From Metallosphaera hakonensis JCM 8857 = DSM 7519 (GTDB taxonomy: Archaea > Thermoproteota > Thermoprotei_A > Sulfolobales > Sulfolobaceae), in the NCBI RefSeq assembly GCF_003201675.2, contig NZ_CP029287.2:1054001-1118000 (forward strand): a DNA stretch of 64,000 bases, given 5' to 3'. A program made the translations under genes and the position numbers. Every line of letters starts with the position of its first letter. The stretch's first letter is position 1. This document shows positions 39,722 to 55,813 of the stretch, piece after piece. The notes beneath the pieces were generated by a model. That model was not told where the DNA came from and searched no databases. It saw only the letters and a list, made by a program, of their open reading frames with translations.

Positions 39722-40282
39722 CTATTGTGTTCTTTCACAAGAGATTTCTATTTCTTTTTCTCTATTTTTCTCAAATATCTGGTCACTAGGTATCTTGAAG
39801 AAGGGAGCATTCCTAATTAGGTTCCTTCTCATGGAAGCCATCACCTCCCTCCACGCCTCCCTGGGGTTGAGCTTATTGATCTGAACTCCTGATTCCTTCG
39901 CCACTAACTTTAGGTAATTTATACACAAGGATCTCACGGAGCAGGTTCTACACGAGTAATCATCCCTCTCCATGTCCATAACTAAAAGCTCTTTGTCGTT
40001 AGTTACATACATTAATTTTTCTTTTAATTCCACTTTATCTCCTTTCATATCGTAGGAGATCACGGCCTTGAAAGCTATACCGTTATCAGACATCAAACCC
40101 ATTTCTCGCATTTTATCTAAAATAAAGTAAAAATAGCTCTTGCTCATGTCGACTCTCTGATGGGTTGAGAGTACCTTTAGGAATCTATCATTACCTATTT
40201 TTTCAAATTTTTCTTTATGTAATAAAACAACGTTCCTTTCTATAATTGGCCTGTCAATTTTAGAAATATTTAAGTAACACAT
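39722..40282 (-). CDS. Cys-motif protein with HTH-like N-terminus, paralogue 1
   Basis: A 186-residue protein of a family I do not recognise. Cys2 follows the start Met, and a C-x2-C-x5-C cluster lies at 111-120 (CRTCSVRSLC). The same four-Cys layout recurs in the paralogue at 50394. Residues 45-65 (MSKSYFYFILDKMREMGLM) resemble the recognition helix and wing of a winged-helix domain. Four conserved cysteines could hold a [4Fe-4S] cluster or zinc. A redox- or metal-sensing regulator is my inference. It starts right behind the proton ATPase gene in the same direction. Confidence 0.6.
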   Translation of the reverse strand: MCYLNISKIDRPIIERNVVLLHKEKFEKIGNDRFLKVLSTHQRVDMSKSYFYFILDKMREMGLMSDNGIAFKAVISYDMKGDKVELKEKLMYVTNDKELLVMDMERDDYSCRTCSVRSLCINYLKLVAKESGVQINKLNPREAWREVMASMRRNLIRNAPFFKIPSDQIFEKNREKEIEISCERTQ

Positions 40283-44933: not shown

Positions 44934-46061
44934 TTAGGTCTCGGTGGAAGGGATCAAATTGTTTCCCTTGTTTCTATCGTCAATTTCAGCTATCCAGTCT
45001 AAATAACAAGATGGATCCTTCTCCCATAGATCACCAGTTACCGCCAGAGCTCTTCCCCTTAACCCTCCATTACACACATCGAAGAACTTACACGAAGAAC
45101 ATTTTACCAAGGTCCTCCTTTTCCTCAGCTTTTCAACCATGGGATGAGGTTGATCCCATATATCCCTCAACTTCTCTACCCTTCCCAGGGGAACCGGGGT
45201 GAACTGGTCAGGGTAAACCACGCCGTCTGGGGTAACATCCGCTATCCTTTCTCCAGATTTGTTTCCTCCGTTTTTCCTTAACAGTTCCAGGATCCCTGGA
45301 TTTCTTGTCAAACTGTAGACCAATACACCATCTACCGGGTTATCCGCAGTTAGAACCTCCCACTCGCCTCTCTTTGCATACTCAATTATCTTGGTTACCA
45401 GACCCACCCTCATTGAATTGTCTATATCCAGCTTTCGATCTGCCCTTCCAGCGTATGCCAGATGGTAGAAGCAGACTCTATTGATTCCTTCTTTCATCAT
45501 TAGATCAAACACGAAATCCACATACTTGTAGTTCTCCCTTGTCAGTGTGAATCTTAATCCAGTCTTTATACCCATCTCCCTTGATGTTCTTATTCCCTTT
45601 ATGGCCTTTGAGAAAGCACCCTCTACCCCTCTGAACCTATCGTGTACAGGTTCGGGGCCATCAATACTCACTCCTACGTAATCCACATATCTCCTAAGCT
45701 CCTCTAGCCTCTCTCTCGTTAACATGGTACCATTTGTTGATAACTCGACTCTTATCCCTCTCTCCCACGCCTCCTTAGCGATAAGATGAACGTCTCTCCT
45801 AGCCAGAGGTTCCCCGCCGGAGAGCAGAATATGCTTGACTCCCATATCCGAAGCTTGTTTCACCGCATTCAGCCACGTACTAAGTGGGAGATCTTGAAAT
45901 AGCTGAGTGCCAGATCCTGAGTAGCAATGAACACATCTCAGGTTGCAGTTCCTCGTCACATTGAAGACAAGAACTGAGGGATATCTGTCCTTTAGACCCG
46001 AATATCTTACCCTATCACCTTCCTCGGCTCTCTTTGAAATAAGTCTAGAGACACTTATCAT
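44934..46061 (-). CDS. Radical SAM/SPASM enzyme, second in operon
   Basis: A 375-residue radical SAM protein. C39-x3-C43-x2-C46 (CNLRCVHCYS) binds the catalytic [4Fe-4S]. GGEPLARRDVH near 86 is the SAM motif, and SIDGPEPVHDRFRGVEG near 133 is typical of PqqE/NirJ-type enzymes. The C-terminal SPASM region has CSSCKFFDVCNGG, for auxiliary clusters. I chose ATG 46061, which overlaps the upstream radical-SAM stop as ATGA; an in-frame upstream start 36 bases earlier also exists. Peptide or tetrapyrrole side-chain modification is the usual job of this class. The exact substrate is unknown. Confidence 0.85.
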   Translation of the reverse strand: MISVSRLISKRAEEGDRVRYSGLKDRYPSVLVFNVTRNCNLRCVHCYSGSGTQLFQDLPLSTWLNAVKQASDMGVKHILLSGGEPLARRDVHLIAKEAWERGIRVELSTNGTMLTRERLEELRRYVDYVGVSIDGPEPVHDRFRGVEGAFSKAIKGIRTSREMGIKTGLRFTLTRENYKYVDFVFDLMMKEGINRVCFYHLAYAGRADRKLDIDNSMRVGLVTKIIEYAKRGEWEVLTADNPVDGVLVYSLTRNPGILELLRKNGGNKSGERIADVTPDGVVYPDQFTPVPLGRVEKLRDIWDQPHPMVEKLRKRRTLVKCSSCKFFDVCNGGLRGRALAVTGDLWEKDPSCYLDWIAEIDDRNKGNNLIPSTET

Positions 46062-47101
46062 ACTCTCACCCTTAACGCCCTTGGAACGTATAGGCAAAAC
46101 GGATCTTCGTCCATTAAGCCCTCAGTTAAACTGAACGCCCTTGCTCTACATCCTCCACAAACTGACCTATACTCACAGACTCCGCATTTTCCTCTAAGTT
46201 TCGATGGATCTCTCAATAATTTGAAAACCGGTGACTCATCATAAATCTGACTGAACTTCCTAAATCTGATGTTTCCCGCAGGCGTTGGAAGGAAACCGCA
46301 GGGATAAACGGTACCGTCATACGCTATAAAGGCGTAACCGTTGCCGGCCATGCATCCTCTAGCTCCACTTACACTTCTCCTCCCGTAGTTTTTATCAGGG
46401 GGTAGGGGCCTTGTAATTCCCATTTCATTCATTACTCTCACCAAGTAAGGGGCGCAGGTCATCCTTACGTTTAAGCCCTCCACCCTCCACTTGGCTATGG
46501 TTCTCATGACCTGTTCAGCTTCGGCTGGAGAGACCATCATGTCTCTCGTTGCCCTCCCTGTGGGAATTAGCATGAAGACGTCCCAAAACACCGGCCTTAA
46601 TTTTTCAATTGTTTCTCTAAGTTCCTGTAGTCTATCCACATTGTATTTGCTTATGGTGGAATTTATCTGAACTGGAAGACCGGCGCTTTGAAGAGACTTT
46701 ACTGCCTCGATGGCCATTTTGAAAGCCCCTTGAACTCCTCTAAACTGATCGTGAATCTCCTCCGGTCCATCGATACTTATGGAAACCATGTTAACTCCAG
46801 TGTCCCTGATCTTTTTGGCGACCTCGGGATTTATTCTGCTCCCGCTAGGTGAGAGGGCAGTTGTAATCCTCCTGGAGGAGTACTCCAGGATCTCGAAGAT
46901 ATCGTCCCTCTTCAATGCGTCCCCTCCGCTGATTACAAAGAGTTTAACACCTGAGGACGATAGGTCGTCCACCAGTCTCTTGATTTCCTCGATAGTTAAC
47001 TCCCCCGGTAACCTATTGGGTATGGCCTTAGCTCTGCAATGCCTACAAGCCAAATCGCAAGCCTTTGTGCTCTCCAGGACTACGACATATGGAGCTACCA
47101 T
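46058..47101 (-). CDS. Radical SAM/SPASM enzyme, first of the tandem pair
   Basis: A 347-residue radical SAM enzyme. C15-x3-C19-x2-C22 (CDLACRHCRAKA) is near the start, ISGGDALKRDD near 57 replaces the usual GGEP, and SIDGPEEIHDQFRGVQG is near 107. SPASM-type cysteines are CGFLP near 268 and CGVCEYRSVCGGC near 308. It is coupled to the genes on both sides by overlaps of 7 and 4 bases, so the operon is U32-like, MBL, radical SAM, radical SAM. The type resembles heme-d1/PqqE-type or TIGR04053-like enzymes. Confidence 0.85.
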   Translation of the reverse strand: MVAPYVVVLESTKACDLACRHCRAKAIPNRLPGELTIEEIKRLVDDLSSSGVKLFVISGGDALKRDDIFEILEYSSRRITTALSPSGSRINPEVAKKIRDTGVNMVSISIDGPEEIHDQFRGVQGAFKMAIEAVKSLQSAGLPVQINSTISKYNVDRLQELRETIEKLRPVFWDVFMLIPTGRATRDMMVSPAEAEQVMRTIAKWRVEGLNVRMTCAPYLVRVMNEMGITRPLPPDKNYGRRSVSGARGCMAGNGYAFIAYDGTVYPCGFLPTPAGNIRFRKFSQIYDESPVFKLLRDPSKLRGKCGVCEYRSVCGGCRARAFSLTEGLMDEDPFCLYVPRALRVRV

Positions 47102-47796
47102 TTGTTCACCACCTCGCCATGATAAGGGATCAAAAAGGAGAAGGGAAGAGAAACTAAACTATGAAAAGAGGCTATTGCGGACTCGTAGTTCCAGGAAAAG
47201 AACCTCAATGGAGGTGTTAACGAACCGTTTACCCCTCTTACAGCGTCCCCTGTTACGAGGTAGTTTCCATCAAACAAAGCAATATGACCCTTTGTATGCC
47301 CTGGAACATGAATAACCTTAAACCCTGAGAGTGTCTCCCCTCCATTTAAGGGGACGTCAACGATAACTGGTTGATATTTTAGACCGTTGATCCTCTCAAT
47401 CGTTTCTTTGAACTCCTTCCCTGAAACCTTCAGCTCTTCCTTCGCTTCACTAAAGGATATCTCATAGTTTGGAGGGTTAATTAAACTTGGAATTTCCTCC
47501 CTGTGGGCATATATCTTGGCACCGCTCAGCCTCTTGATTTCTGAAGCATTTCCGGCATGATCGTGATGCCAATGCGTCACAACTATGTCGGATATGTCCT
47601 CTAACTTGTATCCCCATGCGTTTAAAAAGGCCTCTATTTTATCCAGTGATCCTGGAAGACCTGTGTCAATCATCATTAAACCTCCTAACGGTCCCCTCTC
47701 CACTACTACGATATTGTGATTCAGAGTGCTCCCAAAGAAATCCGGCTCCAGAAGCTCCATGACCCTGATTCGTCCTATCCTAACCATTTCCACCAA
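47095..47796 (-). CDS. Metallo-beta-lactamase-fold hydrolase
   Basis: A 233-residue MBL-fold protein. [10 protein letters not shown] at 74-83 is the H-x-H-x-D-H metal motif; a later His lies in [12 protein letters not shown] near 168, Asp in VTGDAV near 186, and the last His in IPYHGEV near 226. It overlaps both operon neighbours, by 17 and 7 bases. PqqB of PQQ synthesis is also MBL-fold and works with a SPASM radical SAM enzyme; this parallel is the main hint to a role in cofactor maturation. A general glyoxalase-II-like hydrolase is the alternative. Confidence 0.8.
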
Positions 47797-48904
47797 ACCT
47801 CGTGATTAGGTCAAAGGGAACCTGTATTTTCTTGAGTTCTAGGCTTGCAAATTCCTTGTTGCCGACTCTTATTACCTCCCTAGCTACGGCAGGGCAATAG
47901 GCGCATTCCGAGCAACTCCTTCCCTCGCAATCGTTATATTTAAAGAAATTAAGCCAGTTTGGAGGGAACTTCGTGTTATCCACATAAACTTCTCTTAGAA
48001 TTTCGTAGTCCCTTGGCCCGTTCACTTTCTCCATTACCTTGGGCACTGCCCTTCCCTGAGGGTAACTTACAATGTCCAGTAGGTTGCCCTCATATCTCCT
48101 CTCAGAGTAGGCCTTTACTGCCCTAACTATCCACTCTGTCCTCTTGTTCCTGCCCGCGATCTTAAACCTATCAAATCCCAAACCCTCATACACGGGAAGA
48201 TCTTCTGGCCTGATCCACCTCATTCTAATGATATTAGAGAGATCGTTCCTAACGTCTGTAGCACAGAACAGAATGGGATATTCGAACCATGCGTTGATTC
48301 CTCCCTCTACTGAGCTCTGAGATGATACTATATCGTGAGTCCTCCTGTAAACGCAGCCCCACAAACAGGAATTATTGGTAATAAGTTCAAAGTCCGCCCT
48401 CCTCATCAATTTCTGAAGCGACCGCAACAACCTGAAGTTCCTATTGTCATCCTCGTGGAGAATTATAGTATCTGCTCCTAAATCTACAAAGTTCTCCACT
48501 TCCCTTATGTTATATACTCTTGCATATGAAGAAATTGAGACCTCTAAATCGGGGTGTTGTGCCTTAATCAGTTTCACCAGATAAGGTAAGGCAACAATGA
48601 AACCGTCTACTCCCTGGTCTACTAATTTCTCCACTTCCTCAGATAATCTCTTCACAAACTTCTCAGAGTATTCTCCACCGTTCAAGGTTGCAGTATTCAT
48701 AGTGTATAGGAACTTGATTTTTCTGGCGTGCGCCGCATCCAGATGAACCTTAAATCTCTCATCGTCTACGTTGGGTAGAACGAACGATGCCCTCCCATGA
48801 CCGGTTAAGGTCTTAGTATGACTTCCGAAGACGTGGGTTACAGGATATTCCTTGATTTTATCTATTAACTCATCGTCGAAATTTGTTCCAACAACAAGCC
48901 TCAT
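47780..48904 (-). CDS. Peptidase-U32-like iron-sulfur protein
   Basis: A 374-residue protein of the U32/UbiU-UbiV-like fold ([20 protein letters not shown] and [14 protein letters not shown] near residues 120-150). Cysteines in [11 protein letters not shown] near 177 and [12 protein letters not shown] near 328 can bind a [4Fe-4S] cluster, as in UbiV. Such proteins help oxygen-independent hydroxylation in quinone synthesis or tRNA/rRNA modification (family knowledge). It is the first gene of the operon, with a TATA-like TTTAAAT on minus about 25-31 bases upstream, so it is probably leaderless. Confidence 0.75.
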
Positions 48905-48935: not shown

Positions 48936-49021
48936 TTGTTATACGATTAACTGCCTTTAACGTGTGTTATAATGGAATCATTGTAAGAAGAGAAATAGAG
49001 GAATAGGGCATCATTCCCACA

Positions 49022-49099
49022 ATGCAGGAACAAAAAAAGGTAATCAGAATCCAGAGAAGGACCGGGAGATGCGGTTACTCCCCTAGCTGGGGGGAGTGA
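49022..49099 (+). CDS. Candidate precursor peptide (25 codons) for the radical SAM enzyme
   Basis: A 25-residue ORF, not previously assigned to my knowledge. It starts at ATG 49022, shortly after an in-frame TAG at 49004, and ends at TGA 49097-49099. The N-terminal half is basic and polar (MQEQKKVIRIQRR), and the tail contains TGRCGYSPSWGE with one Cys, Tyr and Trp. The stop codon sits in the Shine-Dalgarno region of the radical-SAM gene, which starts 13 bases later. Because Sulfolobales reserve strong Shine-Dalgarno sites mostly for internal genes, this supports a translated first cistron. Shape and position fit a RiPP or PQQ-type precursor. Expression and conservation are unproven. Confidence 0.55.
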   Translation: MQEQKKVIRIQRRTGRCGYSPSWGE

Positions 49100-49105
49100 G
49101 GTGAT
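49098..49105 (+). promoter_or_regulatory. Strong Shine-Dalgarno site before the radical-SAM gene
   Basis: GAGGTGAT is a full complement of the anti-Shine-Dalgarno 3' end of archaeal 16S rRNA (AUCACCUC), with 6 bases to ATG 49112. It indicates an internal cistron and decides the start of the radical-SAM gene. Confidence 0.75.
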
Positions 49106-49111
49106 CTCCCA

Positions 49112-50314
49112 ATGGTCCTATCCAAGTTCAATATTTTTATTGATAATTTCTTGTTTAATACCCTCACAGGTTACGCAATTGAACTGGACCCATGGGAGAT
49201 TGAAAAGGTGAAAAGCGGAGAAATTCCAGCTCACCTTAAGGAGGTAATTGAGGAAGGCTTTTCCAGCACTGATGACGACCTTGAGAAAGTCGTAGAGGGC
49301 TTGCTAAAGAAACCTGTCCTAGAACCCACATTGGTTTTAACCTATAAATGTAATTTCGATTGCGTTTACTGTTTCCAGAAGGGATTTAGGAGAGAAACAT
49401 CGGTTTCAGACAGGACAGTGAAAGGTTTCGTTAATTACGTTAGGAGAAACGAAAAGGGTAGAAAAGTCAGGGTCACGTTCTTCGGTGGTGAACCTCTCCT
49501 AGAGCTCAAGAGAATTGAGGAGGTGTCTAGAGCACTCCTAGACCTAAAATACTCTTTCAGTCTAGTAACCAACGGTTCCATGCTCACAGGGAGCGTAGTT
49601 CAGAGACTGAGTTCCTTAGGTTTATCACATGTCCAGATAACCTTGGACGGGCCCAAGGAAATCCATGACAAAAGGAGATACTATATAGATGGTAGGGGAT
49701 CCTTTGATGTTATAATCAACAACTTGAGAGTTATCCAAGATATGGTGAAAGTTGTGCTAAGGATAAATATTGACGTAAATAACCTTACTGAGGTGGATCA
49801 GCTACTCGATGAATTGAGAAGAGAAGAAATAACCAAGGTTAGACTGGATCCTCATTTCGTCCACACAAACATGTTCAGAAACGAGTGGTGGGATAACGTG
49901 ATACCAAAGGACCTTGAGGCGGAAGTAATGAGGAAGTTCTGGGAGAGCGCTAAGGATCATGGCTTCGATATTCCCCACGACATCTTCAGGCTGGGAATTT
50001 GCGTGGCACATATAGATGAAGACATAGTGGTGGACCCAGAAGGTAGAATTTACCCATGTTGGGCATTCACGGGAAATCCGCTCTACGTTAAAGGGGAGCT
50101 TAATGAAGACGGTACAGTGAAAGTTGTCAACCCCTCTTTACTAGGAAGGAACAGTCTCAAGATACATGATCAATGCAGATCCTGTCCCTTCCTTCCCCTA
50201 TGCATGGGTGGATGTAGGTTCCTTTCTGTTCTAGATAAGAAGGGATACCACGGACTTGATTGCCGTAGGGAAACTTACGAGAAAATAGCTAAGCTAGTTA
50301 AGTTACTCCGGTAA
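49112..50314 (+). CDS. Radical SAM/SPASM peptide maturase candidate
   Basis: A 400-residue radical SAM enzyme with an N-terminal 70-residue domain before the cluster, as in peptide-modifying maturases. C80-x3-C84-x2-C87 (CNFDCVYCFQ) binds the catalytic cluster, and GGEPLLELK is near 127. LGICVAHIDED (near 294) and PCWAFTG near 315 start the SPASM region, and CRSCPFLPLCMGGCR near 353 is a seven-Cys-type SPASM ending. It is downstream of the 25-codon ORF in the same transcript and divergent from the U32-MBL-radical-SAM operon. Thioether or C-C crosslinking of the peptide is the inferred reaction. Confidence 0.8.
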   Translation: MVLSKFNIFIDNFLFNTLTGYAIELDPWEIEKVKSGEIPAHLKEVIEEGFSSTDDDLEKVVEGLLKKPVLEPTLVLTYKCNFDCVYCFQKGFRRETSVSDRTVKGFVNYVRRNEKGRKVRVTFFGGEPLLELKRIEEVSRALLDLKYSFSLVTNGSMLTGSVVQRLSSLGLSHVQITLDGPKEIHDKRRYYIDGRGSFDVIINNLRVIQDMVKVVLRINIDVNNLTEVDQLLDELRREEITKVRLDPHFVHTNMFRNEWWDNVIPKDLEAEVMRKFWESAKDHGFDIPHDIFRLGICVAHIDEDIVVDPEGRIYPCWAFTGNPLYVKGELNEDGTVKVVNPSLLGRNSLKIHDQCRSCPFLPLCMGGCRFLSVLDKKGYHGLDCRRETYEKIAKLVKLLR

Positions 50315-50393
50315 ACCCCGTTAAAGGAAAATACGCTTGTCTAGTGTAAATTCATTTTTTTAACTTTGATAATAACTAAGAGTTGTGGGTACA

Positions 50394-50927
50394 ATGTGCG
50401 ACTATAGAATCTTCAACACCGAGAGACCAGTTAAAAGCACGGAGAAAATAATTATGGTCTCAAGGGAGAACTTCAACAAGCTTGGGACCGAAAATTACAT
50501 CAAGGTTATGTCCACGGATAGAAGAGAAACCCTGGGGTTGAGCAAAAGCTATTACTACTTCATACTTGAGGACTTAAAGAGAATGGGACTCGTTGAGGAC
50601 AATGCGATTGCGTTTAAGGCAGTTATCCCCTTTATTCCAAGGGAGAATTCCCTCGAAGTGGACACTGGGGTACTGTACACGTCTAAGAACCATTTAATAT
50701 TCATTGACATGGGTTCCTCTAAATACGAATGTGTTACATGTCCAGTTTACGCCGAATGCATTTACGGGATTAAGAGGATAGCCACTGAGATGAGGCTGAA
50801 GACTGGTGTGGTGGATAGTGAGGAATCTAGGGCCCATAGGATTCCCTCTATTGTCTGGAACAAACTAGTAAAAGGAATTTTCGCTAAGAATATAGTTAGA
50901 CTTGAAGTAATACCTGTAAAGAGTTAA
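50394..50927 (+). CDS. Cys-motif protein with HTH-like N-terminus, paralogue 2
   Basis: A 177-residue paralogue of the protein at 39722. I chose ATG 50394 because MCDYRIF aligns with MCYLNIS of the paralogue; a GTG nine bases upstream is possible. Cys2, Cys113, Cys116 and Cys122 (CVTCPVYAEC) repeat the conserved layout, and LSKSYYYFILEDLKRMGLV near 50-67 the winged-helix-like segment. TATA-like TTTTTTTAAC is about 30 bases upstream. It follows the radical-SAM gene by about 80 bases but probably has its own promoter. A cluster-based sensor is inferred; the family is unknown to me. Confidence 0.6.
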   Translation: MCDYRIFNTERPVKSTEKIIMVSRENFNKLGTENYIKVMSTDRRETLGLSKSYYYFILEDLKRMGLVEDNAIAFKAVIPFIPRENSLEVDTGVLYTSKNHLIFIDMGSSKYECVTCPVYAECIYGIKRIATEMRLKTGVVDSEESRAHRIPSIVWNKLVKGIFAKNIVRLEVIPVKS

Positions 50928-51305: not shown

Positions 51306-52354
51306 TAGTATTTCCGAAAAGTTTAAAACGTTCTGTAATGATTTAGAAGAATGGAAAATTTAGTAGAGGCTTACGAGAGGGAGAAGGACGTCAAGGTGAG
51401 GGAGAGGATACTAGCAGTCAAGATGCACGTAGTGGACGGGATGAGGGAGGTGGAGGTCGCGAAGGTCCTCAACAAGGGTTACTCCACGGTGAGGACGTGG
51501 GTGAGGAAGTTCAGGAAGGGAGGGGTAGAGGCCCTCAGGGATAGGCCCAGGTCCGGGAGGCCCAGAAAGGCCGGGAAGGAGGATGTGAAGAGGGTCCTGG
51601 AGGACGGGCCCAGGAACTACGGGATCGAGCAGGACTTCTGGACGGTCAAGGCGCTCAAGGTTGTACTCCTGAAGAGGGGAGTGGAGTACAGGAAGTCCAG
51701 GCTGTACGAGCTGGTCCACGAGCTCGGGTACGAGCTGGTGACGCCCAGGCCCACAAACGTGAAGGCTGAAAGGGAGAAGTGGGACGATTTTAAAAAAAGT
51801 GAAGGAGTTGGCAGACGAAGCGGTGAACTTCTTCGACGAGTGCAGGGCCGTGATCAGCACCCTGGTGAAAAGAGTCCTGGCGAGACGAGGGAGTAAACCA
51901 GTCCTCAGGGTCAACACGGGCTTCTCCTCGACCTACGTCCTCCTCGCTGTTAATGCGTGGACAGGGGAGGTCGTGTTCACAGTTGCTGACAGGCCCAACT
52001 CCGAGTCCGTGAAGTACTTCCTGCGCTACTTCAAGAGGAGGGTTGGGAAGGGTAGGAGTTACCTCTTCATGGACAACGCGTCTCCCCACAAGACCCAGGG
52101 AGTCCGGGAGGTCTCCTCCAAGAAGGGGATACACCTGGAGTACATCCCCAAGTACTCCCCTGAGCTCAACTTGGCGGAAGCCGTCTTCAAACAGCTCAAG
52201 GCTTACCTGTCCAACAGGCTCTTCAGCTCGCTGGACGAGCTGAGGGACTGCATCCTGAAGTTCTTCGCGGAAAATAACTACAAGTTCAACCTTAATGCAG
52301 TAAAATACTTGGGACTTGATAAAATTGAGCGTTCATAACTTTCCGGAAATACTA
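51306..52354 (+). mobile_element. IS630-family insertion sequence (ISC1048-like)
   Basis: Ends are TAGTATTTCCGAAAAGTT at left and the reverse complement of TAGTATTTCCGGAAAGTT at right. The inserted piece of about 1.05 kb starts and ends at TA, the target typical of IS630/mariner elements. The size is close to ISC1048. It carries one transposase gene in two frames. Its GC-rich coding style differs from the surrounding AT-rich DNA. Confidence 0.8.
51351..52338 (+). CDS. IS630-family transposase, split by an A7 frameshift site
   Basis: The N-terminal 150 residues (51351-51798) hold helix-turn-helix segments (VAKVLNKGYSTVRTWVRKF). The DDE domain continues in another frame from about 51799 to 52338: Asp in VNFFDECRAV, Asp in YLFMDNASPHKT and Glu in ELNLAEAVFKQLK. 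The frame change is at a run of seven A (51792-51798). Losing one A gives a continuous ...DDFKK-VKELADE reading. This may be programmed slippage or simple mutation. Read from the first frame alone the product stops after 181 residues without a catalytic domain. Confidence 0.75.
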
Positions 52355-54439: not shown

Positions 54440-55813
54440 GACGTTGTCCAGGTTAAGCAAAATTGAAATATTATTATAACTATAATATTTCGAATCATGT
54501 TATTATACACTAAATATAATCGTGATGAACAATATAATCCGGGTTAACGAATTTGATTTAAATAATTATGCAGGGGGCAATAAATTCTCTGAACGAGTTG
54601 AACGGGTCGTCGAGGTCGGAACCTCAATTTGAGGGTAATATTAATAGGGGATTGGGTCGAGGTAATATCATGGAAAAGGTGCTCCATACCGAGAAGGACG
54701 TCCTGTTGAAGGCGAATGGGGTTTTCCCGTGGGAGAAGTTCAGGGAGAGGTTGGAGTCGCTCTACCGCAGAAAGCCCAAGTGGGACGTGATCCTGCTCTT
54801 CAAGACCCTCCTGATCAAGTACGTCTACGACATATCCTGGAACAACCTGGAGGGGGAGATAAGGGATAGTCAGAAGTTCAGGGAGTTCCTTGGGGAGAAG
54901 GTACCTCCCAAGAGCACGGTCTTCCTGTTCTACAAGAAGCTTCATGAGACCGTGAAGGGAGAGGAGGTCATGTGGACCACGCTCATGGTCGAGCTCAACT
55001 CGGCCCTCGATGAGGTCATAAAAAGGTACCAAGAGAAGGGCTTCGAACTGCAGGTGGGGAGAGAAAAAACGACGAGTACGAAGAGTACTACGTGATGGAC
55101 ACGTTCTTCCGGGAGGCCTATCCAGGAAAGAGGAGCCTCCAGACAGGGCTCGAGAAGATCTCCCTTGACATAAGGGAGACCCGGTTCCCAGACGAACTAT
55201 CCCTCATGGCCCACTCGGTCAACAAGCTCAAGCACTTCGCGACCTCAAGGAAGTACAGGGGGAGTTGGGGCATGAAGCGGGGCAAAGCCTACTACGGTCA
55301 TAAGGTATGCAACCTTGTGGAGAGGAAAACTAACCTGGTGAGGGACTTCAAGGTAGGGTTAGCGAACCTCAGCGACCTCAAGTTCTCCTTCCCCAAGGAC
55401 AAGCTCATGGGGGACAGGGCGTGGTCCTCGAGGAAGGACGTCCTGGTCAAGGGAGTGAGCGCTGCGAGACTACCTGTGGAGGGGAGCGGTGTGAGGATCA
55501 GGGAAGGCGTGGCCTCTTCGACCACCGAGAGGGGAGAGGTCGTGGAGGTCTTCTTCCTGAACCTCTATCGCGACCTCGAGGTACTCCTGACCAGGATCAG
55601 GACTAAGATCGCGATCAATTGACGTACGCCTCCTCGAGGTCCTCCTCAGCCAGGGGCATTGAAAAATTTATCTCAAAATTGTACAATTATTTCTATATGA
55701 TCTAAAGAATATAGATTATATTACTCGTTATGGTTAAATTTTATACATAATTACATGAAATGAAATATTATAGTCACGATAATATTTCAATTTTGCTTAA
55801 CCTGGACAACGTC
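54440..55813 (+). mobile_element. IS5/IS4-type insertion sequence with 4-bp target repeat
   Basis: Terminal inverted repeats GACGTTGTCCAGGTTAAGCA at left and its complement at right extend about 33 bases to AAATTGAAATATTAT. ACGG on both sides (54436-54439, 55814-55817) looks like a target duplication. The element is 1374 bp and holds a transposase in two frames. The intact ends and target repeat indicate a fairly recent insertion. Confidence 0.82.
54568..55622 (+). CDS. IS5-type transposase, split by an A6 frameshift site
   Basis: The first frame (54568-55095, 175 residues) holds the DUF772-type N-terminal domain (DVILLFKTLLIKYVYDISW). The second frame (to 55622) carries the DDE domain: Asp in YYVMDTFFREAYPG, Asp in LMGDRAWSS and Glu in EVVEVFFLNLYR. 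The change occurs at GAGAAAAAACG (A6, about 55061-55066), where a -1 shift or one added A joins RE to ERKNDEYEEYY. A separate ATG in the second frame at 55095 would make only the C-terminal part. Whether the shift is programmed is unproven. Confidence 0.75.

Follow-up and report, generated by a model that had tools for sequence, protein, structure and literature searches.

A conserved 25-codon gene and its radical-SAM/SPASM neighbour as a putative peptide precursor–maturase pair in thermoacidophilic archaea

The products of ranthipeptide maturases are Cys-to-beta/gamma-carbon thioethers, and the SCIFF precursor contains six Cys residues. In the SCIFF ranthipeptide system CteA/CteB (PDB 5WGG/5WHY), an RRE, a radical-SAM core, and a SPASM domain are combined in one maturase chain, and the precursor leader binds to the RRE in the form of a beta strand. 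Further described systems are those of the geopeptide maturases of Geobacter and Geotalea (TIGR04280) and the Cys-every-fifth system of CefB (NF038107). The PQQ and mycofactocin pathways (PqqA/PqqE/PqqB and MftA/MftC) each start from a single, very short conserved precursor that is accompanied by a radical-SAM/SPASM enzyme and a partner of the metallo-hydrolase fold; the PQQ precursor carries a Glu-X3-Tyr motif, and the mycofactocin precursor ends in Val-Tyr. PqqA is 23–29 aa long (PMC2294125), and PapB, the radical-SAM/SPASM maturase of the ranthipeptide PapA, carries out leader-guided Cys cross-linking (PMC9413430). In archaea, experimentally validated RiPPs had been limited to lanthipeptides of Haloarchaea according to one survey, which also reports, in general terms, many uncharacterised radical-SAM RiPP clusters (PMC12144867).

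The window analysed here, a stretch of 64,000 nucleotides from Metallosphaera hakonensis JCM 8857 = DSM 7519, contains a 25-codon gene immediately upstream of a radical-SAM/SPASM gene (Table 1). With a probability of roughly 0.9, judged from sequence comparison, the two genes would encode the precursor and the maturase of a radical-SAM-modified ribosomal peptide (RaS-RiPP). The pair displays all of the RaS-RiPP features compared here at the sequence level, namely the adjacency of the genes, a CxxxCxxC motif together with a seven-Cys SPASM domain, and a predicted RRE, and modification of the peptide by its neighbour is what these features point to. A precursor–maturase pair had already been proposed by the first-pass annotation, and the proposal is supported by an invariant peptide, adjacency in 15 of 15 loci, joint loss of the two genes, the predicted RRE and SPASM domain, and a leader motif common to the peptides of distant relatives.

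Table 1. Features of the locus, with positions in the window, and upstream peptides of distant maturase relatives
Feature	Position	Strand	Basis or sequence
Metallo-beta-lactamase-fold hydrolase, HxHxDH at 75–80; candidate third component	47095..47796	-	Present in every peptide-bearing genome
Peptidase U32-family protein, divergent neighbour	47780..48904	-	In most of the family, shares an operon with the hydrolase
Putative precursor peptide gene, 25 aa, MQEQKKVIRIQRRTGRCGYSPSWGE + stop	49022..49099	+	Sequence reading; 15 orthologs, pN/pS 0.20
Leader part, residues 1–14, motif [KR][VIL][VIL]x[LI][EQ][RK]	49022..49063	+	Motif common to upstream peptides of distant relatives, 5/5 cases
Predicted mRNA fold across peptide core and maturase start	49058..49119	+	Helices 49058–49063/49114–49119, 49064–49070/49104–49110, 49075–49084/49090–49099
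Core part, residues 15–25, GRCGYSPSWGE	49064..49096	+	G15 R16 C17 Y19 S20 P21 S22 W23 G24 invariant in 15 orthologs
Shine-Dalgarno-like TGAGGTGATC, overlapping the peptide stop codon	49097..49106	+	Direct reading; this or a similar site in most congeners
Putative radical-SAM/SPASM peptide maturase, 400 aa	49112..50314	+	PF04055, Cys motifs, fold comparison
180-aa protein, four invariant Cys	50385..50927	+	Starts 70 bp after the maturase gene in the window's genus
Upstream peptide, G374			TRIIVLEK...NFCGPYCSLVCG
Upstream peptide, G384			SKVIVLER...NFCGTFCRTVCG
Upstream peptide, G183			KKIIILEK...NFCGPYCSLVCG
Upstream peptide, G473			PRVIVLER...NFCVTFCRTVC
Upstream peptide, G368			SRVLVLER...NFFCGSFISP

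The 25-codon frame lies exactly where the first-pass annotation had placed it, and its ATG follows an in-frame stop as described there, with the correction that 15 bases, not 16, separate this TAG (49004–49006) from the ATG at 49022. The basic leader and the short Cys/Tyr/Trp tail are likewise present: the whole peptide has a calculated pI of 10.3, with a basic N-terminal half, and its tail reads RCGYSPSWGE. The view that this tail is fused to the leader of the radical-SAM gene did not hold, as the frame closes with a TGA at 49097–49099 and forms a cistron of its own, 12 nt ahead of the maturase ATG at 49112; an N-terminal extension of the maturase was rejected for the same reason, a stop separating the two frames in 15/15 loci. 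The TGA provides the first three bases of TGAGGTGATC, whose match to a Shine-Dalgarno site was judged against the general archaeal consensus; no archaeal SSU rRNA was found in the copy of the genome analysed. This overlap, which had been put forward as a typical trait, is real in the window and is found only in some lineages, whereas the spacing of 1–12 nt between the end of the peptide and the maturase start is universal among the 15 loci, where the peptide measures 23–28 residues.

Orthologs were sought with the radical-SAM protein as the query in 60 genomes around the window's own, and full-length orthologs (57–75% identity) were found in the window's genus and in other genera of the family. 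In all 15 loci of Sulfolobaceae-type archaea with upstream DNA available, the peptide stands in frame upstream of the intact maturase gene, so that the conserved appearance noted in the single sequence is matched by the alignment of related genomes; in one further genome (G023), the contig starts inside the maturase gene and the upstream region is missing, which places it outside the 15 loci. The orthologs follow the consensus KK[VI]VxIERKxGRC[GN]YSPSWG[EDQ], with I10 and R12 invariant in addition to the nine fixed core residues. Over the last 20 codons, synonymous sites are near saturation (pS 0.777) and nonsynonymous change is low (pN 0.157), which answers the suggested check for synonymous-site bias; 19 of the 20 third positions vary, compared with 8 first and 6 second ones, and the Ser22 codon belongs to the AGY set in some genomes and to the TCN set in others. 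Near-saturated synonymous change together with 11 fixed residues indicates selection on the peptide itself; a chance reading frame is thereby ruled out, and the frame is, on this comparative evidence, a real and strongly conserved gene.

Inheritance of the two genes is also linked. The system is present in 16 of 31 family genomes, about half of the sample, and no genome carries an intact peptide gene without an intact maturase gene. A frameshift or stop in the peptide beside an intact radical-SAM gene, which the first-pass annotation had named as the finding that would count against it, was sought in the relatives and was not found; at both decayed loci, the maturase was lost as well. In G018, only MERRVVKIERKMGRC is left, fused to the final quarter of the maturase, and in G002 only a 37-residue maturase remnant persists beside transposase-like sequence, so that decay took both partners. 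Split transposase-like frames also lie downstream of the locus in the window (51351–52338 and 54568–55622), consistent with the patchy distribution. In G029, a second peptide gene with the other type of core (MDPKKVVKIERKMGRCNYSPS...; L136, 1441–1563) is a remnant, interrupted inside its core and near transposase-like sequence, which suggests that this genome apparently once carried both variants. A weak second peptide-like copy in G017 was discarded because it overlaps a larger unrelated frame.

The protein encoded downstream matches PF04055, and its radical-SAM core motif is C80xxxC84xxC87. Its C-terminal part contains the full seven-Cys SPASM motif (C297-X13-G311-X4-C316, C355-X2-C358-X5-C364-X3-C368, and C384), in agreement with the definition CX9-15GX4C-gap-CX2CX5CX3C-gap-C (PMC6231123). 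The AlphaFold2 model (mean pLDDT 84, pTM 0.84) begins with three strands and three helices (E7-10, E13-16, E21-24, H27-34, H40-47, H54-64), which is the arrangement of an RRE, a three-stranded sheet with three helices (PMC8326336); residues ~1–66 are thus predicted to be the leader-binding element, with moderate model confidence over these 66 residues (pLDDT ~60–77). Among solved structures, CteB is the nearest whether the comparison is made by sequence (E 9e-50), by Foldseek, or by VIA-align (Z 27.0, rmsd 6.1 over 357 residues, covering model residues 2–400).

Among curated families, the best scores come from RiPP maturases, most of them of the thioether type, and all of these stay far under their cut-offs: the geopeptide model TIGR04280 is the best (239.5 bits over residues 14–391, cut-off 400), and CefB (NF038107, 220 bits, cut-off 600), PapB (NF047865, 145.8 bits, cut-off 340), and SCIFF (TIGR03974, 96.7 bits, cut-off 425) score lower, so that assignment to any of these four was rejected. 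The peptide gave no direct match in NCBIfam or Pfam, and neither partner matches a curated family at its cut-off. The warning that so small a frame is easily missed was apt, as it is too short for the usual gene callers and is covered by no Pfam or NCBIfam model. A search of plasmids returned remote radical-SAM proteins only.

The maturase shares with CteB the three domains in one chain and, presumably, the docking of the leader as a beta strand, but it is only ~20% identical to CteB, and its peptide has a single Cys, unlike the SCIFF precursor and also unlike the Cys-every-fifth precursor of CefB. The small reading frames beside Geobacter-type relatives (MENETVELEVLDEG...CC...) do not resemble the peptide, despite the top score of the geopeptide model. 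The Cys-Xn-Asp/Glu motif of PapA (n = 0–6) is absent, since Cys17 is separated from residue 25 by seven residues and residue 25 can be Gln. The PQQ and mycofactocin systems resemble the present one in their very short precursor, their radical-SAM/SPASM enzyme, and their metallo-hydrolase-fold partner; however, Glu-X3-Tyr occurs in 0 of the 15 peptides, the C-terminal Val-Tyr is lacking, an RRE is predicted within the maturase chain here, and the other pathway genes are no part of the conserved unit. The best reading of these sequence comparisons is a new RaS-RiPP family, outside all of the described subfamilies tested.

In the proposed mechanism, peptide and maturase would be made from one mRNA by coupled translation, and the KKVIRIQRR-type leader would dock as a beta strand on the N-terminal RRE of the maturase. 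The enzyme would then use a 5′-deoxyadenosyl radical and its SPASM Fe–S clusters to install a cross-link in the core GRCGYSPSWGE. The core contains no known cross-link motif of the Cys-X3-Asp/Glu kind. The most likely product would be a thioether between Cys17, the only Cys and an invariant one, and a residue close to it; this chemistry is favoured by the kinship of the maturase, and by analogy we give it about an even chance. A C–C link with Trp23 (in Trp23-Gly24-Glu25) or Tyr19 as the aromatic partner is the next best product and a tentative one, a sub-case of the same precursor–maturase pair whose likelihood is not to be added to that of the pair. Trp23 and Tyr19 are both invariant, and the C-terminal W-G-[E/D/Q] has the spacing of three-residue cyclophanes; set against this, the single Cys is invariant too, the maturase scores far higher with the thioether-type maturases PapB and TIGR04334 (138 bits) than with the cyclophane enzyme YhhB (70 bits), and it is CteB that heads the fold neighbours.

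A small reading frame immediately upstream is also found beside maturase relatives (~30–35% identity) from other Thermoproteota families, and five of these frames combine the same leader motif with a different core (Table 1). The motif strand is proposed to be the one that binds the RRE. Among background small frames, the motif occurs in 15 of 1611, a set that includes genuine loci, and four of the five distant peptides come from one genus, which leaves two or more independent cases. Maturation guided by an RRE would be expected to keep the leader constant while the cores are exchanged, as is seen here. The replacement of the core in distant relatives, together with the invariant Cys/Tyr/Ser/Pro/Trp core within the family, fits a substrate and speaks against the idea that the peptide remains unmodified and acts as a stable small subunit, or as a partner, of the maturase or some other enzyme. 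Conservation over most of the length, an uncommon trait in a leader destined for removal, and the lack of a protease gene universal across the loci would suit such a subunit, but enzymes of this class (an RRE with a seven-Cys SPASM domain, CteB-like) modify peptides encoded next door (PMC8326336), and we regard the unmodified subunit as highly improbable.

Beyond the five motif-bearing relatives, the upstream peptides are unrelated; in Geobacter, Brockarchaeota, Culexmicrobium, and Thermococcus, the small Cys-containing frames upstream differ from this peptide, and these relatives were set aside. At L166, L167, L168, L173, and L165, a sister precursor family with the core NFC[GV]xxCxxVC was observed in another family of the order, with one looser relative, and it apparently also lacks a family model.

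The mRNA of the window's genus is predicted to enclose the Shine-Dalgarno site and the maturase start in a long hairpin, paired with the peptide's own codons. The fold has a z of -3.45 in the window, of -3.90 and -2.94 in two congeners, and of about -1.45 in the other two, and four pairs are changed on both sides among these five species, as against a shuffled mean of 1.8, in a sample that is small and related. The enclosure of both sites implies coupled translation in the window's genus, at the level of the model: a ribosome moving along the peptide frame would unwind the structure around the maturase start. Such a fold would also be expected if the frame were a regulatory leader peptide (a uORF or attenuator), whose translation controls the mRNA fold at the maturase start and whose product is discarded. 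However, little or nothing of the fold is seen in L006, L009, and L013, the further lineages tested, where the peptide is nevertheless conserved to its last residues with synonymous sites near saturation, which makes the fold a lineage feature and the peptide the constant. The frame contains no run of sensor codons, and the same leader motif stands beside distant maturases with different cores; a purely regulatory role is thus given very little weight. A fold for coupling and a peptide that serves as substrate can coexist.

Beside the precursor and its maturase, the neighbourhood offers a candidate third component. The metallo-beta-lactamase-fold hydrolase occurs in 16/16 genomes with the system versus 7/15 without it (Fisher p = 0.0008, not corrected for phylogeny). 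In four genomes of another genus, it is encoded next to the maturase, directly after it in G019, G027, and G029 and divergently in G030; the first three group with the window's genus, apart from their genus mate G030, in the trees of the maturase (100/100) and of the hydrolase (93/95) alike. This congruence suggests that peptide, maturase, and hydrolase moved together as a set. The hydrolase is likely to belong to the system and probably acts late, for example in trimming. It is not exclusive to the system, as it pairs elsewhere with a U32-family gene, including in genomes without the peptide, and so has at least one other context; the U32-family protein is a possible accessory. These two genes are part of a divergent operon (44934–48904), kept within the genus and, in part, across the family, that also encodes two radical-SAM/SPASM proteins, one TIGR04053-like (355 of 395 bits) and one NirJ1/AhbC-like, and that is possibly a cofactor pathway of its own.

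The role of the 180-aa protein encoded downstream of the maturase is uncertain. It gave no family match, its structure model was unusable (mean pLDDT 39.6), and its gene is kept beside the decayed loci of G002 and G018, so that it is not tied to the peptide. Like the product of 39998–40282, it is a member of a protein family with an N-terminal Met-Cys and a CxxCx5C motif, likewise without a family match, of which several copies per genome lie near radical-SAM or oxoacid oxidoreductase genes.

Across the loci compared, no consistent transporter or immunity gene and no universal dedicated protease gene was found. Given the full-length invariance and single copy of the peptide, and with no such transporter or immunity neighbour, an intracellular product of the cofactor-like or housekeeping kind is more plausible than a diversifying antimicrobial. 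A more specific proposal, that thermoacidophilic archaea make a new peptide-derived redox cofactor analogous to PQQ or mycofactocin from this precursor, is unlikely but worth stating: cross-linking of the Cys/Tyr/Trp core by the maturase would be followed by completion of the cofactor by the metallo-hydrolase, possibly helped by the U32 protein. The U32 family includes oxygen-independent hydroxylases.

Neither the peptide nor the system was found in the literature or family libraries searched, and the maturase gene may already be among the antiSMASH calls of the archaeal survey (PMC12144867). The shared leader motif is a handle for finding more such pairs in Thermoproteota, and the locus would represent a compact, conserved peptide–maturase pair from extreme thermoacidophiles, which may supply a thermostable radical-SAM enzyme together with its defined substrate.
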